Positions 2,546-6,890 of a DNA stretch of 6,890 bases are shown one piece after another. This stretch comes from Thermus kawarayensis JCM 12314 (GTDB taxonomy: Bacteria > Deinococcota > Deinococci > Deinococcales > Thermaceae), in the NCBI GenBank assembly GCA_001311545.1, contig BBBL01000079.1:1-6890 (forward strand), read 5' to 3'. How positions within the stretch are numbered: the first letter of the stretch is position 1; each line of letters opens with the position of its first letter. A program made the position numbers and the translations under genes. The notes beneath the pieces are model-generated. The model worked only from the letters and a program-made list of their open reading frames with translations. It was not told where the DNA came from and made no database searches.

Positions 2546-3449
2546 TTATGCCCGGGGGGAGGGGTCCCCGAAGAGGTGGAGGAAGAGGGCCTCGAGGCTC
2601 GGCGTCCCCCGGGAGACCTCCAGCACCTCCACGGGGAGCTTGCCCAAGGCCTCCCGCAGCGTCTCCCACGGCCCCAGGAAGAAGAGGACCTCGGGGCCTT
2701 CCGCGCTCCAACCTGGGCCTAAGGCCTTAAGGAGGGCCTCCGCCTTGGGCTCGGCGAGGCGCACCCGGTACCCCTCCCCGGCCCACTCCCGGAGGAGGGC
2801 CCGGGTGGGGCCCTCCTTCAGCACCTCTCCCCGGCGGAGGAAGGCCACCCGGTCGCTCACCCGCTCCACCCCGTCCAGGTCGTGGGAGGTGAGGAGGATG
2901 CCCCAGCCCTCCTTCTTGAGCTCCAGGAGAATCCCCTCAAACTCCCTCCGGCTCACGGGGTCCAGGCCCAGGGTGGGCTCGTCCAGGAGGAGGAAGCGAG
3001 GCTTGAGGGCGAGGGCCAGGGCCAGGGCCGCCTTCTGCTGCATGCCCCGGGAGAGGGAGGCGAGGGGGGCGTGGAGGCGGTCCTTTAGGCCAAAGCGCTC
3101 CAGCCAGGCCTCAAACCGGGGGCGGACTTCCTTTGGGGGAAGCCCCCGGATGCCCCCGAAGTAGAGGCGTTCGCCAGGAGGCTCAGGTTGACGTAGAGGT
3201 TGCGGCTTCCCTCCAGGAGGACGCCGAACTCGTGGCCCTGGGGCCTGCGCCGCACCCCGCCCTCTTCCAGGACCACCTCTCCCGCGTCGGGGAGGAGGAG
3301 GCCGAGGACGACCTTGATGAGGGTGGTCTTGCCCGCCCCGTTGGGGCCCAAAAGGCCCAGGATCTCCCCGGCCCCAAGCTCCAGGCTCACCCCCTTGAGG
3401 CCTCCAGCTTGCCGAAGCGCTTGTGGACGTTCTGCACCGAAAGCCGCAT
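2546..3449 (-). CDS. ABC transporter ATP-binding protein (ABC-2 exporter type), frame-disrupted
   Basis: Nucleotide-binding subunit, about 301 residues after repair, that powers the permease encoded just upstream. Motifs in order are Walker [11 protein letters not shown]-loop-like segment [15 protein letters not shown], signature LSRGMQQK (a variant of LSGGQ), Walker B FLLLDEP followed by D-loop TLGLDP, and the H-loop [14 protein letters not shown]-terminal extension ([15 protein letters not shown] onward) is typical of DrrA/CcmA-type ABC-2 exporters. The ATG at 3449 ([15 protein letters not shown]) shares its A with the permease stop in TGATG, and GGGAGG precedes it. The frame breaks at 3399-3400 (repair gives [15 protein letters not shown]) and at 3166-3167 (repair restores [19 protein letters not shown]). 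The exported substrate is not known from sequence; context suggests a peptide or self-protection role. Confidence 0.88.
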
Positions 3450-4213
3450 CAGTACCTCCCTAAAATCCCCCGCAGACGGACCAACTTGTGCATGTAGCCC
3501 AAGGCGAGAAGGCCGAAGCATACCAACAGCAAGGCCTGCAGGAAGGCAGAAAAGGCCACCCACCCCGTCCACTCCCCCCCGGCAAAGCTCCGGCTCAAGA
3601 GGTGGGCAGCTGGGGCCAGGGGAAGGTACACCATGTAATCCCGCCAATGGACTACCGAAAAGAAGTAGAGCAGGAGGCCAAACTGGATGATGGTAAAAAA
3701 AAGCTCAGGATCTGCTTGAAGTAGAGAGCGAGGGCAGCCATACCCAGGGAAAACCCCAAGGCCGCTACCACCAAAAGCGCCAGGGCAAGCAGCCAGAAGG
3801 TTCCGGATTGAAAGAAACGCCCGTCAGCAACAACAGAACCCCCAAAAGAACGCCCGTCCTGAACAGGATAAACAAGCTATCCGATGCTCCCCTAAAGAGA
3901 AGCTGGACCACAAGACCCCCTCGGGCCAAGGCTAAGTGCTCTAGCGTCCCCCTCTGAGCTCCTGAGCGATCGTGAAGGCCACAGATTGAAAAATACCCAC
4001 CACTACGCCAAAGACGGCATACATGAAGAGGATGTCCTGCCCTCCGCCAAAGTCAGCGCTCGGGCCGGACACGACAACCGATCCCAGGGCCATCCATATG
4101 GCGTAGAAAAACGCCATATCCGCGAAGAGGCCAGCCAGAAAGTCAGGCCAGTAGGTCCGGTAAAAGTTCAAGTTGAGCCAAACCTCTGCGAAAAATTGGC
4201 GTAGATAAGCCAT
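3449..4213 (-). CDS. ABC-2 type transporter permease, frame-disrupted
   Basis: An integral membrane exporter subunit of about 255 residues after repair, with around six predicted hydrophobic spans. It begins [19 protein letters not shown] and then has a membrane stretch ([14 protein letters not shown]), a second ([21 protein letters not shown]) and the conserved cytoplasmic stretch [15 protein letters not shown] seen in ABC-2 permeases. Later spans include [54 protein letters not shown] and [24 protein letters not shown] upstream of the ATG supports the start. Three runs each lack one base: C5 at 3948-3952, A3 at 3811-3813 and A8 at 3695-3702. Each repair rejoins the membrane-protein reading exactly. 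The gene is visibly less GC-rich than its downstream neighbours. It overlaps the ATPase start by one base and likely forms its dimeric membrane domain. Confidence 0.82.
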
Positions 4214-4328: not shown

Positions 4329-4409
4329 CTAGCACTTGCCATTAACGATGCAGAACGAGCCGCAAATGAACTCACGCTTTGTGCTATCCGGCTTGAGAAT
4401 CCACCGCAT
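4329..4409 (-). CDS. 26-residue Cys-rich mini-peptide (candidate secreted or RiPP-like precursor)
   Basis: A short gene of 26 codons plus TAG. The N-terminal half is MRWILKPDSTKR and the rest reads EFICGSFCIVNGKC, giving C-x3-C-x5-C with Cys as the last residue. I accept it as a real gene because AAGGAGGTGA, close to the ideal Shine-Dalgarno sequence, lies five bases before the ATG, in the same layout as the lipoprotein start. It sits between the lipoprotein/Cys-rich gene and the ABC-2 exporter on the same strand. It has no classical signal peptide. The charged N-terminal half followed by a Cys/Ser half would suit a short leader plus modified core, or an unmodified disulfide peptide. No modifying enzyme is visible nearby. 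I do not recognise the family. A small metal-binding or regulatory leader peptide is the main alternative. Confidence 0.6.
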   Translation of the reverse strand: MRWILKPDSTKREFICGSFCIVNGKC

Positions 4410-4430: not shown

Positions 4431-4465
4431 GCCCGTGCAGGGCCGAGGTGCCAGCTTTGCCTCGG
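4431..4465 (-). other. two adjacent small hairpins between the Cys-rich gene and the mini-peptide gene
   Basis: On the minus strand CCGAGG pairs with CCTCGG across an 11-base loop (4465-4443). It abuts a second stem, GCCC/GGGC with a five-base loop (4443-4431), immediately before the mini-peptide ribosome binding site. No T-run follows, so this is more like an RNA processing, stability or attenuation element than a classical terminator. Confidence 0.35.
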
Positions 4466-4473
4466 TTGCCCCA

Positions 4474-4845
4474 CTAAAAACACCTGGAGTTAGAAGAATA
4501 GCGAATGTTAGAGTAAAACCTGAAATCGCCCAACTGGTAGTAGTAGCCCGACCAGGCATCGCTGTAGCATCCCGTGGCCCCGTAAGCCACGCTCCGGCAG
4601 TGGGAAGAGGGCCAACCCGAACCGTAACAGGTGGGAGAACTGCTGCTGGCCGTCCAAGCGTTGGTCCGGGTTTCCACCCAGCCCCAAATGATGCTACTCA
4701 TAGAACAAATGGCGGTGGCGTACACCTTCGCCCCAGGGGAAGCGGTAGTGGGCATGGCGGAGGCACTCAGGCTACAGGAGGGGAAAAGGGACTGGGGGGC
4801 GAGGTACTGGACCAGGAGGGGAAAGGTGTCTAAGCCCACCACCAT
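4474..4845 (-). CDS. Cys- and aromatic-rich secreted segment, probably the C-terminal part of the upstream lipoprotein
   Basis: A 123-residue frame with six Cys and many Tyr, Trp and Ser residues. The second half reads like a disulfide-bonded extracellular domain (WGWVETRTNAWTASSSS, then CYGSGWPSSHCRSVAYG, then CYSDAWSGYYYQLGDF, ending SRCF). Its first residues lack the positive charge and long hydrophobic core of a signal peptide, so it is a poor stand-alone secreted protein. It starts 16 bases inside the end of the lipoprotein frame. Adding one G to the five-G run at 4846-4850 joins the two frames directly (PPALKTPDGG followed by MVVGLDTFPLL), and equivalent one-base gaps occur in nearly every other gene here. 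I therefore favour a single lipoprotein of about 319 residues. A coupled separate gene is the alternative. I do not recognise the domain family. Confidence 0.6.
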   Translation of the reverse strand: MVVGLDTFPLLVQYLAPQSLFPSCSLSASAMPTTASPGAKVYATAICSMSSIIWGWVETRTNAWTASSSSPTCYGSGWPSSHCRSVAYGATGCYSDAWSGYYYQLGDFRFYSNIRYSSNSRCF

Positions 4846-5432
4846 CCCCCATCGGGGGTTTTCAAAGCGGGAGGCAGATTCTCCCTTTCTCCACCTGGGG
4901 GTAGATTATCGGGGCCGTACCGCTTCACCTGCCGAACGATTTCCCTCAGCTTAGCCCTGAGCTCCTGGCGTTGCGGTTCCTTGAGGGGAAGAGGGAACTT
5001 TCTCAAGAAGGCGTTCTCCAAGACGCTTACCACAAGCTCCTCGTCCGACCAAAGAGCGTGCTGCTCCTTCACAAAGCGGAGCTGTTCCTCCCAGAATGCC
5101 TTTTCCTCAAGGGTGGCTTGGGCCATCCTCCCTTGGGCGTATTCGGCGAACTTCTGCACGCTTTCCTCGCTCAAGAGGGGTGGCACTATATCCAGGGAAA
5201 CCCTCCCCTCCTTCTCCCAGTACCGGACCCCGGGGGCGAGTTCTATCCAAGCGCCGGATTGATCTAGGGATTGGGAAGGTGTTGCGGTTGCCGCTCCCTG
5301 CCCGCAGCCTGCAAAAAGACCAGAGAGAACGACCAGGAGCGCCAAGAGCACTTTTGGATTCCAGGCGAAGGGCCTCACGTGGACCCGCCGTGTCCGGCCG
5401 CCGGCTTTGACCTCCTGGACCTCCTTGCACAC
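4830..5432 (-). CDS. lipoprotein with helical ectodomain (N-terminal part of a likely longer protein)
   Basis: The 200-residue frame has a basic N-region (GGRTRRVHVRPFAWNPK), a hydrophobic core (VLLALLVVLSGLFAG) and the lipobox FAGC with Cys at about residue 43, so it should be lipidated and anchored on the outer face of the cytoplasmic membrane. The ectodomain has a short GQGAATATPSQS linker, then charged helices (EESVQKFAEYAQGRMAQATLEEKAFWEEQLRFVKEQHALW and onward). GTG 5432 is chosen over the in-frame GTG at 5441, because the latter lies within the Shine-Dalgarno GGAGGTGA, while 5432 keeps the same five-base spacing seen at the mini-peptide gene. A shorter start inside VHVRPF is also possible and would give a more compact signal peptide. 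It probably continues into the Cys-rich segment through a missing base at 4846-4850. It is the first gene of the minus-strand accessory operon. Function is unknown. Confidence 0.75.
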   Translation of the reverse strand: MCKEVQEVKAGGRTRRVHVRPFAWNPKVLLALLVVLSGLFAGCGQGAATATPSQSLDQSGAWIELAPGVRYWEKEGRVSLDIVPPLLSEESVQKFAEYAQGRMAQATLEEKAFWEEQLRFVKEQHALWSDEELVVSVLENAFLRKFPLPLKEPQRQELRAKLREIVRQVKRYGPDNLPPGGERENLPPALKTPDGGWWWA

Positions 5433-5437
5433 CTTCT

Positions 5438-5445
5438 TCACCTCC
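5438..5445 (-). promoter_or_regulatory. ribosome binding site deciding the lipoprotein start
   Basis: GGAGGTGA, five bases before GTG 5432, matches in sequence and spacing the site before the mini-peptide gene. It overlaps the alternative GTG at 5441, which makes that earlier start unlikely. Confidence 0.6.
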
Positions 5446-5461
5446 CTTCCAAGTTAGTCCC

Positions 5462-5494
5462 AGGGTAGCAAAAGGAAGGTAACGCCCGCGTAAC
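5462..5494 (-). promoter_or_regulatory. activator-type promoter of the lipoprotein gene (site A): heptamer direct repeat plus -10
   Basis: On the minus strand heptamer GTTACGC (5494-5488), a four-base spacer GGGC, heptamer GTTACCT (5483-5477), nine bases, then TACCCT (5467-5462) as -10. The repeats start 11 bp apart, one helical turn, and occupy the -35 region, where no consensus -35 is seen. Transcription would begin near 5455, leaving a short leader with the ribosome binding site. This is the layout known for SARP activators in Streptomyces, with direct heptamers 11 bp apart close to the -10 box. Confidence 0.65.
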
Positions 5495-5523
5495 TCAGGA
5501 AGCTCTCATAAAGACTCCAGGGC

Positions 5524-5556
5524 GTTACGCGGAGGTTACGTGGGCCGGGGTAGCCT
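5524..5556 (+). promoter_or_regulatory. activator-type promoter of the small plus-strand gene (site B): heptamer direct repeat plus -10
   Basis: On the plus strand GTTACGC (5524-5530), four bases GGAG, GTTACGT (5535-5541), nine bases, then TAGCCT (5551-5556). The core is nearly identical to site A (14 of 16 bases) with exactly the same spacings, but points the other way. The -10 ends six bases before ATG 5563, so the transcript would be leaderless. The two sites are separated by 29 bp. Confidence 0.65.
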
Positions 5557-5562
5557 TTGGGC

Positions 5563-5661
5563 ATGCGGCTCCTGTGGCTTCTCCTCGCCCTCCTCGGAGG
5601 CTTTAGGGTCCTTCCCCAGTGCCTCGTCCCCCACTGCCAGCCCCCGGGGCCGGGGCTTTAA
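5563..5661 (+). CDS. small secreted-type peptide, 32 residues, leaderless
   Basis: ATG at 5563 opens a 32-codon frame ending in TAA. The N-terminus MRLLWLLLALLGG is a short basic plus strongly hydrophobic segment. It is followed by FRVLPQCLVPHCQPPGPGL, with two Cys (residues 20 and 25) and a Pro/Gly tail. No Shine-Dalgarno sequence is present, but a -10-like TAGCCT sits six bases upstream, typical of leaderless genes. It runs opposite to every other gene here and is divergent from the lipoprotein through a shared regulatory region, which is the main reason to believe it. The Gly-Gly before the Cys part could be a double-glycine cleavage site or simply the end of a signal peptide. Product could be a pheromone, a bacteriocin-like peptide or a membrane mini-protein. 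A base missing in the G/C runs near its end could also have truncated the frame. No family is recognised. Confidence 0.45.
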   Translation: MRLLWLLLALLGGFRVLPQCLVPHCQPPGPGL

Positions 5662-5727
5662 GTGCCCGTACCTCGGTCTCGCAACATGGGATGCCCAAGC
5701 CGGGGCTAGGGGGAGACTTTTTGGGGC

Positions 5728-5755
5728 CCCCACCGCGGCTTGGGCCGCGGTGGGG
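5728..5755. terminator. perfect 11-bp hairpin between convergent genes
   Basis: CCCCACCGCGG and CCGCGGTGGGG pair perfectly across a six-base loop. The hairpin starts three bases after the regulator stop codon on the minus strand, and 66 bases after the small plus-strand gene ends. There is no T-run on either 3' side, which is not unusual in very GC-rich genomes. It probably ends regulator transcription and insulates the divergent promoters from it. Confidence 0.65.
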
Positions 5756-5758
5756 TAC

Positions 5759-6890
5759 TTAGAGGCCCCACTCCCTCCTGAGCCTTTCCGCCCGGGCCTG
5801 GGCGATGGGAAGGCGGGGGTCTTCGGGGGGTAGCCTCTCCAGAAGGGCCTCCCAGACCTCCAGGTCCTCCCCCAGGCGCTCGGCCAGGAGGAAGGGGGCG
5901 TCCGGGTCCTGGGAGGCCAGGGCCGCCCGCCTCAGGGCCTCCTCCAGCTCCAGGCGGAGGGCCTCCACCCAGGGGCCTGGCTTTGGGGAAGGAGGGGGCC
6001 CCGGTAGCGGGCGAGGGCTCCCCTCAGGTCCCCCTGCGAAGGGCCTCCCACACCTCCAGGAAGTCCGCCCGTAGGGCTGGGCCAGGCGGTAGGGGCGGCT
6101 TTCCACGGCAAGCCCTCGCCGCCTCAAGCGCAGGACCTCCATGCGGAGGGCGGGCCCGTTGGCCTCCCCGTAGAGGGCCTGGGCCAGGTCCTCCCCCCTC
6201 CACCCCTCCTTCCGGGCGAGGAGGAGGGCAAGGAGCTCTGCCTGGCGCAGGGGGAGGGGCTCGCCGCTAAGCCTTGGCTCCCCCAGGGCCTGGAAGTGGG
6301 CCCAAGGGCTTGCGGACCAAAGGAGCTCCTGCCCCCTCTTGGAGAGCTCTCCCAAGAGGGGTGGGGCCTCCCCAGGAAGAGGAGGCCCCGCATGGCCTCC
6401 TCCGCCGCCTCCTCCAGGAGGAGGGACAGGGCCTCGGCCACCCCTTCCCCGTCCCCCCGGTAAAGCCCCTGGGCCAGGGCGAGGAGGGCCTGGGTGAGGG
6501 GCTCCTTGGCCCAGGGCCTCGCCGCCTGGAGGAAGGGGAGGGCCTCCTTCCCCAGGAGGCGCACCCCGGGGGGGGCGAGGTAAGGGAGGGCGGGAAGAGG
6601 GGCCTCCTCCAGGGCCTTCCGCAGGTAGGCCCGGGCGGTGGCCTCCTCTCCCTGGAGAAGGCGCAGGTGGGCCATGAGGAAGCGGGCGTAGAGCGGTACC
6701 TCCCCCCAGGCCCAAAGGCTCCACCTGGCGGAGGAGGTCGGGGAGGGGAGGGTCTTCCTCGGCGAGGAGGGCGAGCCAGGCCCACTCCAGGAGGGCGAAG
6801 GGGGTAAACCCCCGGGCATGGGCTAAGGCGGCGTAGTCCAGGGCCTCCCTCAGGCGGCCAATCCGCCTCAAGGTGCGGGCCAGGGCGAGG
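5759..6890 (-). CDS. SARP/BTAD-like transcriptional regulator with N-terminal helical repeats, 5'-truncated and frame-disrupted
   Basis: The C-terminal 375 or so residues of a larger regulator; the start lies beyond the right edge. From the N-terminal side there are TPR-like helical repeats (LREALDYAALAHARGFTPFALLEWAWLALL and RFLMAHLRLLQGEEATARAYL), then at about 6260-6080 an OmpR/SARP-type winged helix. That domain shows RQAELLALLLARKEGW, RGEDLAQALYG, the likely recognition helix NGPALRMEVLRLRRR, and the wing LAVESRPYRLA. A BTAD-like start follows (DFLEVWEALRRGDLRGALARYRGPLLP), with helices up to the stop. Four frame breaks are inferred: one extra base in C6 at 6702-6707 and one missing near 6370-6373, 6068-6070 and 5968-5975. 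Each repair restores regulator-like sequence. It is a candidate to bind the paired heptamer repeats downstream. An ATPase domain further upstream, outside the window, is possible. Confidence 0.75.
   Translation of the reverse strand, partial: LALARTLRRIGRLREALDYAALAHARGFTPFALLEWAWLALLAEEDPPLPDLLRQVEPLGLGGGTALRPLPHGPPAPSPGRGGHRPGLPAEGPGGGPSSRPPLPRPPRGAPPGEGGPPLPPGGEALGQGAPHPGPPRPGPGALPGGRGRGGRGPVPPPGGGGGGGHAGPPLPGEAPPLLGELSKRGQELLWSASPWAHFQALGEPRLSGEPLPLRQAELLALLLARKEGWRGEDLAQALYGEANGPALRMEVLRLRRRGLAVESRPYRLAQPYGRTSWRCGRPFAGGPEGSPRPLPGPPPSPKPGPWVEALRLELEEALRRAALASQDPDAPFLLAERLGEDLEVWEALLERLPPEDPRLPIAQARAERLRREWGL

Follow-up and report, generated by a model that had tools for sequence, protein, structure and literature searches.

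A two-way promoter with mirrored repeats joins a regulator gene, a probable two-cysteine peptide gene and varied cargo operons in Thermus and its relatives

The window is the whole stretch of DNA that was analyzed, 6,890 nucleotides from Thermus kawarayensis JCM 12314. It contains a cargo operon on the minus strand, two mirrored repeat sites, a tiny peptide gene on the plus strand and the 3' part of a regulator gene. The features are as follows.

2546..3390, minus strand: ABC transporter ATPase gene of the cargo operon, in two frames in this record
3449..4213, minus strand: region resembling a permease (ABC-2 type, judged from position and by eye), spread over several frames in this record
4329..4409, minus strand: Cys-rich mini-gene of 26 aa, MRWILKPDSTKREFICGSFCIVNGKC, resembling a RiPP precursor, with a strong ribosome-binding site before it
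4474..5441, minus strand: first cargo gene, lipoprotein-like and Cys-rich at its end, with 318-319 aa in relatives, in two frames here (4830-5441 and 4474-4845)
5494..5462, minus strand: site A, GTTACGC-GGGC-GTTACCT-TCCTTTTGC-TACCCT, a direct repeat (GTTACGC-N4-GTTACCT) followed after 9 nt by a -10 element
5467-5462, minus strand: -10 element TACCCT of site A with TGC directly before it, candidate promoter for the lipoprotein operon, with transcription expected to begin near 5455
5495..5523, no strand: conserved linker of 29 nt between the mirror sites, the two 16-mers being a fixed 45 bp apart from start to start
5524..5556, plus strand: site B, GTTACGC-GGAG-GTTACGT-GGGCCGGGG-TAGCCT, a direct repeat (GTTACGC-N4-GTTACGT) followed after 9 nt by a -10 element
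5551-5556, plus strand: -10 element TAGCCT of site B, candidate promoter of the peptide gene
5563..5661, plus strand: tiny peptide gene of 32 aa, MRLLWLLLALLGGFRVLPQCLVPHCQPPGPGL, with a predicted hydrophobic signal sequence and a C-x4-C-x-P-P core; the -10 ends 6 nt before its ATG
5759..6889, minus strand: 3' part of the regulator gene, cut by the window's end and carrying a frameshift in this record; its domains were read from relatives

The regulator, lipoprotein and ABC ATPase genes are each split over frames, by sequencing errors or by decay. The window's own pieces of the permease region had no Pfam match; the L003 homologue matched at E 0.044.

An earlier note on this DNA had described sites A and B as equal in architecture, with an identical spacing that would be hard to get by chance. 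Both sites were located as claimed. The pattern GTTACGC-N4-GTTACNT-N9-TANCCT had exactly two matches in the window, sites A and B, and no match in 200 dinucleotide shuffles. GTTAC-N6-GTTAC occurred in the window at these sites only. The paired-site observation is exact and far beyond chance. The N9 between heptamer and -10 depends on how the heptamer is chosen, and the distance that is constant across families is GTWAC-N11-TANNNT. The note had also described -10 elements without a good -35, and this agreed with a promoter scan of 5380-5780, which found no sigma-70 promoter with a -35 box; such a promoter was rejected for this region. A known RNA element was rejected for the window, as no Rfam match was obtained at gathering score over its whole length. 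The plus-strand start expected near 5563 is the ATG of the small ORF. Because the predicted start coincides with the ATG, with six nucleotides between -10 and start, the plus-strand mRNA is predicted to be leaderless. From the sequence, the regulator would bind sites A and B and activate transcription at the two candidate starts.

The earlier note had staked its reading on the repeats recurring in related Thermus genomes, and they did. With the lipoprotein as query, five Thermus loci were found in genome contigs. Both 16-mers and the 29-nt linker were nearly invariant in 6/6 aligned loci. Among these six, L001-L003 had other DNA where the regulator would be; in L003 it looks by eye like a transposase gene. 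Across 27 Thermus genomes, the pattern GTTACG-N5-GTTAC was enriched over control, with 50 occurrences in 18 genomes against 2 for the reversed pattern. By our own count, the 27 genomes held 11 mirror pairs in 7 genomes, every pair 45 bp apart. The mapped loci contained 45 distinct GTTACG sites, of which 22 lay 151-331 bp past the 3' end of a regulator gene; the remaining 23 were promoter copies without an adjoining regulator, or unrelated-looking repeats. The regulator was absent from 12 loci fetched around single repeat matches (L137-L148). Not every repeat match is such a promoter.

Past the regulator stops in mapped loci, the repeats were followed by a TGC-TANNNT element and then by the first gene. 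The GTWAC-N11-TANNNT layout recurred next to homologues of the regulator gene in Thermus, Meiothermus and their relatives, with gene order, sites and spacing kept. The two divergent promoters with the same sites, which the earlier note had tied to the adjoining regulator gene, are an architecture kept across genera. Spacing was counted in 33 de-duplicated intergenic regions, and the counts are conditional on the peptide because only peptide-bearing regions were covered. On the peptide strand, GTWAC-N11-[TC]ANNNT-N6-start was present in 26/33 distinct regions; with a strict TANNNT, spacing 11 was present in 14/33 and was still the mode (next most frequent spacing, 7/33). On the cargo strand, GTWAC-N11-TANNNT was present in 22/33 regions (next most frequent spacing, 10/33). 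The GTWAC-N11 layout is common to both promoters.

The pattern GTTACC-N10-TAGGGT-N6-ATG occurred 10 times in 18 Meiothermus-type genomes and 0 times when reversed; it was drawn from these loci, and 8/10 matches are loci of origin. Eight matches stood at full-length regulators, two at regulator remnants and none elsewhere. The label Meiothermus-type rests on peptides identical to proteins from named organisms (L174 to P0149 of Meiothermus luteus, L184 to P0148 of Calidithermus roseus, and L171 to P0161 of Truepera sp.). Regulators were about 490-540 aa long, and the Thermus proteins, of about 490 aa, formed two main families, REG1 and REG2. The repeats varied with the regulator family. REG1 loci had mirror pairs with a period of 11 bp, and REG2 loci had clustered GTTACGCG and GTAACCT with a period of 10 or 11. 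Single loci had GTGACGC (L083) or GGTAACGTCTG (L082).

The repeats might instead be operators for a different or repressive factor, with the adjoining regulator a bystander. The 23/45 mapped sites that are not just past a regulator are consistent with this, as are promoter copies without an adjoining regulator (L001, L002 and second copies in L120 and L070). However, 5/5 genomes with an unaccompanied mirror pair (G001, G002, G003, G008 and G016) have a regulator-family gene elsewhere, and the repeats change with the regulator family. In addition, 10/10 pattern matches in the 18 Meiothermus-type genomes adjoin a regulator or its remnant, and the spacing is like that of activators compensating a poor -35, as described in the available part of the source (PMC10936776). 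We consider a separate factor very unlikely and take the adjoining regulator as the probable ligand of the repeats.

With the C-terminal half of the L005 relative as query, regulator matches were found in 21/27 Thermus genomes. A regulator profile had matches in at least 93 of the 111 genomes of the phylum, many of them long proteins in which only the C-terminal part is common. In a profile comparison using alignment A3 (the regulators without the L079 row), the C-terminus matched SARP-type proteins over A3 columns 320-426, with probability 89.9 and E 1.7e-6. Two matches to elongation factor Tu (E 0.24 and 0.36) came from alignment A2, which had one row out of frame, and were taken as chance. 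In the relative P0141, PF00486 (Trans_reg_C) matched the corresponding C-terminal end at 640-696 with 25.1 bits, below the cut-off of 26.2. PF03704 (BTAD) at E<=0.1 had no match at the listed regulator positions in 8 genomes, though every one of the 8 had matches in other proteins. The three regulators scanned gave no Pfam 2025 or NCBIfam match at the model's cut-off. TPR-type matches were weak; the best was NCBIfam TIGR02917 (E 4.9e-4, 18.1 bits vs a cut-off of 312), and Pfam TPR models matched at E 0.07-0.6. These results suggested a regulator with a TPR-like N-terminal region and a C-terminal winged-helix/BTAD-like part. A SARP-like winged helix next door had been proposed; the C-terminal kinship to SARP-type domains rests on the profile comparison. 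A canonical SARP was rejected, as the winged-helix-like part is C-terminal and BTAD had no Pfam match; judged by its predicted domains, the regulator is SARP-like but not a SARP.

The regulator at L079 3058-4914 is nearer REG1 overall (726 vs 326 bits) and looks, by eye, like REG2 in its C-terminus and promoter. In its peptide frame, an ATG is missing at the usual place. This regulator is possibly a natural recombinant, of use for mapping peptide specificity.

The C-x4-C-x-P-P motif was first read antisense past the REG2, L082, L083 and L126 regulators and in the window's plus-strand ORF, all from Thermus. Twenty further regions were chosen, and the 11 loci outside the genus of G003 among the profile matches listed served as a non-Thermus test. 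All 11 carried the antisense ORF, 10 with the exact motif and one with a variant core (L172, CNNPQCVSP). These ORFs start 118-153 bp past the regulator stop, and their cores are mostly AC..P.C.PP. Contexts were then reduced to distinct ones on the 200 nt following the stop; those with an ORF match short of profile position 485 or with less than 200 nt downstream were dropped. An antisense peptide ORF was present downstream of 29/35 distinct full-length short regulators. It was also present beside 5/18 partial regulator ORFs, and it was found beside 0/7 long regulators with the same DNA-binding C-terminal end. The motif occurred on the sense strand in 0/35 full-length contexts, in 20/7000 shuffles, and in 6/20000 windows away from regulators and sites, those overlapping 700 bp around regulators and sites having been left out. 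A further set of random windows (421/19857) includes the real loci many times and is not a null. On the sense strand, shuffles, distant windows and long regulators, a chance origin of the motif was rejected.

Six full-length regulators had no peptide ORF. L129 is followed by other DNA, by eye a transposase gene. L088 (also read as L117) keeps the peptide frame, PQCLTPHCPPPGLGL, with the start codon absent where expected. L096, L097 and L098 are three similar Thermus regulators (likeness judged without a tree) without the two-Cys peptide; L122 and L124, copies of L096 and L098, retain a related frame whose corresponding part contains one Cys. L182, the most distant, has a one-Cys ORF. Broken peptide copies with a frameshift, lost start or early stop were seen in L003, L004 and L005.

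For dN/dS analysis, peptide genes were grouped by regulator family and identical rows were merged; the broken L003, L004, L005 and L117 and the lone L079, L082, L083, L108/L126, L171 and L172 were left out. The dN/dS was 0.38 for 11 REG2 sequences, 0.40 for 9 Meiothermus-type sequences, and 0.61 for 5 close REG1 sequences, which are the window's group and count as weak evidence. In a six-frame control with REG2 and Meiothermus type (REG1 left out), the annotated frame was lowest, at 0.37 and 0.38, and the other frames gave 0.50-1.76. The peptide is under coding constraint. Length differences in whole codons are not evidence of this, because the ORFs were chosen as open from start to motif. Independent gene calls contained 22 matching proteins at E<=0.1, the named ones called hypothetical protein. 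Mlute_01947 is one such gene-caller peptide, numbered beside the regulator Mlute_01948, and TTHN1_00826 of T. thermophilus is another. Residues around and between the Cys vary between families. The end of the mature peptide is uncertain in REG2 loci, because the frame runs on antisense into the regulator gene. The tiny gene belongs to a conserved family of two-Cys peptides that are probably secreted. This peptide family is the main finding. The earlier interpretation held as to divergent promoters, common sites and the regulator link; it failed as to SARP membership, and it had missed the peptide family.

The cargo varied, and the first cargo genes differed between locus copies in which the peptide was kept. 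Radical SAM/SPASM proteins were found in L131, L126 and L067. The best NCBIfam match of the L131 and L126 proteins was the RiPP maturase family TIGR04463 (362.7 and 250.7 bits vs a cut-off of 525), and that of the L067 protein was the peptide maturase WgkB (99.7 bits vs a cut-off of 650). Other first cargo genes encode ABC-2-like permeases (L122, by eye) and a QueC-like protein (L128). Propeller-like cargo proteins gave weak matches, and MFS transporters lie further on in some loci, e.g. L067. On a plasmid of T. thermophilus JL-18, genes for the regulator, a radical SAM protein and an MFS transporter stand in that order, with the peptide ORF between regulator and radical SAM protein.

An MRW..KP start is common to the window's mini-gene and to Cys-rich mini-genes that were selected by eye in L005 and L075. 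Because RiPP precursors share leaders, this start suggests a RiPP precursor family with a short common leader and a variable core.

Several further observations were made around the cargo. About 28 N-terminal aa of the lipoprotein (window 5358-5441, minus strand) are common to propeller-like proteins and very short ORFs elsewhere (L003, L067, L068, L074 and L119), as if promoter and first codons were a recombining module. This common N-terminus, KEVQEVKVGGRTRRVHVRPFAW, was not relied on as a universal RiPP leader, because by eye it resembles the start of the propeller-like protein, put on the lipoprotein by recombination. L070 has a second mirror promoter (4447-4507) with its own peptide ORF, MQFLWLLLALLGGSGVLPQCLAPHCPPPGPGL (4531 onwards, plus strand), before a radical-SAM-like gene and downstream of the first cargo operon, the module being duplicated within the locus. 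Cys-rich RiPP-like precursors lie near long regulators at L199 212-406 (minus strand) and L200 4336-4530 (plus strand); they end in CNSNCNSNC or CNTNCNANC, with a SPASM-type maturase end nearby by eye. Short first cargo ORFs in L175 (3326 onwards) and L181 (3370 onwards), in regulator orientation, end in PCTAGI or PCAAGI and look like another precursor family in Meiothermus-type genomes. OppB/OppC-like genes were seen by eye near the regulator in L122 (2850-4713) and L125 (9598-10608), and they are a possible import route for the peptide.

The varied cargo bears on whether the peptide is itself the product, that is, an exported disulphide or RiPP peptide of minimal size, or a helper of the cargo, with the regulator following another cue and the promoters merely co-regulated. 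RiPP-like cargo is found at many loci, and two Cys with a predicted signal sequence in the peptide would suit a product. However, the peptide tracks the regulator and not the cargo, being kept beside propeller-like, transporter, QueC-like and radical-SAM operons, and it has its own divergent promoter outside the cargo operon. It is also absent at the 7 long regulators, although what looks by eye like the end of a radical-SAM maturase gene adjoins three of them (L196, L199 and L200). We regard the peptide as unlikely to be the product. A role in or on the producing cell, with a membrane or periplasmic partner (anti-activator or export sensor) and no intercellular signal, would fit the strong hydrophobic segment, the very short mature part, and most loci having no visible dedicated importer. 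Against it, the residues flanking the two Cys and separating them vary from family to family, which specificity of a pheromone would require, and the OppB/OppC-like genes adjoin the L122 and L125 regulators, of one regulator type only. A purely own-cell role seems less probable still. We favor a pheromone with positive feedback, because the peptide is kept with the regulator whatever the cargo and would be expressed from a mirror copy of the same promoter.

The window sites are, on our reading of the sequence, one copy of a switch made of a regulator gene, a tiny peptide gene, a swappable cargo operon and a common two-way promoter. We hold with moderate confidence that this is a self-contained peptide-signaling switch in which regulator, peptide and cargo are linked by positive feedback. 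In this model, the regulator would bind GTWAC direct repeats on each side of the two-way promoter region and recruit RNA polymerase to both promoters, each of which has a -10 but lacks a -35. From one of them would come a leaderless mRNA encoding a small peptide for export; the peptide has a C-x4-C-x-P-P core and may be cut at AxA and form a disulphide. The second would drive the cargo operon, in many cases a radical-SAM RiPP-type locus that includes exporters. On accumulation, as in density sensing, the peptide would be re-imported or sensed, bind the TPR-like region and turn the regulator on, so that peptide and cargo would rise together.

In PlcR/PapR and ComR/ComS, the genes for a regulator and its secreted peptide are neighbors, and feedback is positive. 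The present module differs from them in its DNA-binding domain and peptide, and in a two-way promoter common with the cargo. Rgg is a cytoplasmic regulator of TPR build, and RRNPPA receptors including Rgg carry their DNA-binding HTH at the N-terminus. In the Thermus regulator, unlike these receptors, DNA-binding similarity was found at the C-terminal end, as a SARP/OmpR-like winged helix. An adjoining pro-peptide gene, another RRNPPA feature, was found in 29/35 distinct full-length contexts, with secretion predicted from the sequence. In RRNPPA systems, the TPR region serves as receptor for the peptide after its re-import by an oligopeptide permease. The two-Cys C-x4-C-x-P-P peptide and the Deinococcota hosts also differ from Rgg/SHP. 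The module is most likely a peptide-pheromone/TPR-regulator circuit driving RiPP-type operons and working like Rgg/SHP. According to the available part of the source, Rgg/SHP controls radical-SAM RiPP operons in streptococci by the same logic and, as here, has a small adjoining peptide gene (PMC13361665). The accessible sections of an RRNPPA survey of Firmicutes place all but one genus with matches in Bacilli (PMC9765709).

SARPs, in the portion of the source at hand, have an N-terminal winged helix and bind direct repeats with a distance of 11 or 22 bp between them, the -10 lying 8 bp away (PMC10936776). The winged helix of SARPs is of OmpR type, with BTAD next to it on the C-terminal side, and SARPs activate operons for antibiotics or other natural products. 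As in SARPs such as AfsR, the repeats here are direct, about one helical turn apart, and upstream of a -10 without a good -35; the winged helix is related, and natural-product operons are the targets, here predicted (PMC10936776 and PMC10972967, each in part). Unlike in SARPs, the winged helix is C-terminal, BTAD was undetected by Pfam, a peptide gene is linked, the repeat period in REG2 is 10 or 11, and 9 nt instead of 8 (by heptamer count) separate the repeats from the -10. No description of this peptide or of the peptide/regulator pair was found in the literature searched, with most subscription journals outside its reach.

A broader reading is that these loci represent an unrecognized peptide quorum-sensing family of Deinococcota, to which we give barely better than even chances. 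Its parts would be a pheromone with the C-x4-C-x-P-P core, a TPR regulator whose SARP-like winged helix is C-terminal, and a common two-way promoter; together they would form a portable module, evolved independently of Rgg/SHP, for turning on interchangeable RiPP-type operons. Peptide signaling via cytoplasmic receptors is best known from Gram-positive bacteria. If our reading is true, the Thermus/Meiothermus pair of peptide and regulator extends it to a deep diderm lineage, which includes the genetically tractable model T. thermophilus. From the model, a specific synthetic peptide can be predicted, as can two start sites for each locus. The model also offers a rule for searches: look for a two-Cys mini-gene that lies antisense, immediately downstream of a TPR/winged-helix regulator. 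If true, the peptide would be a possible inducer for RiPP-type operons in that lineage.
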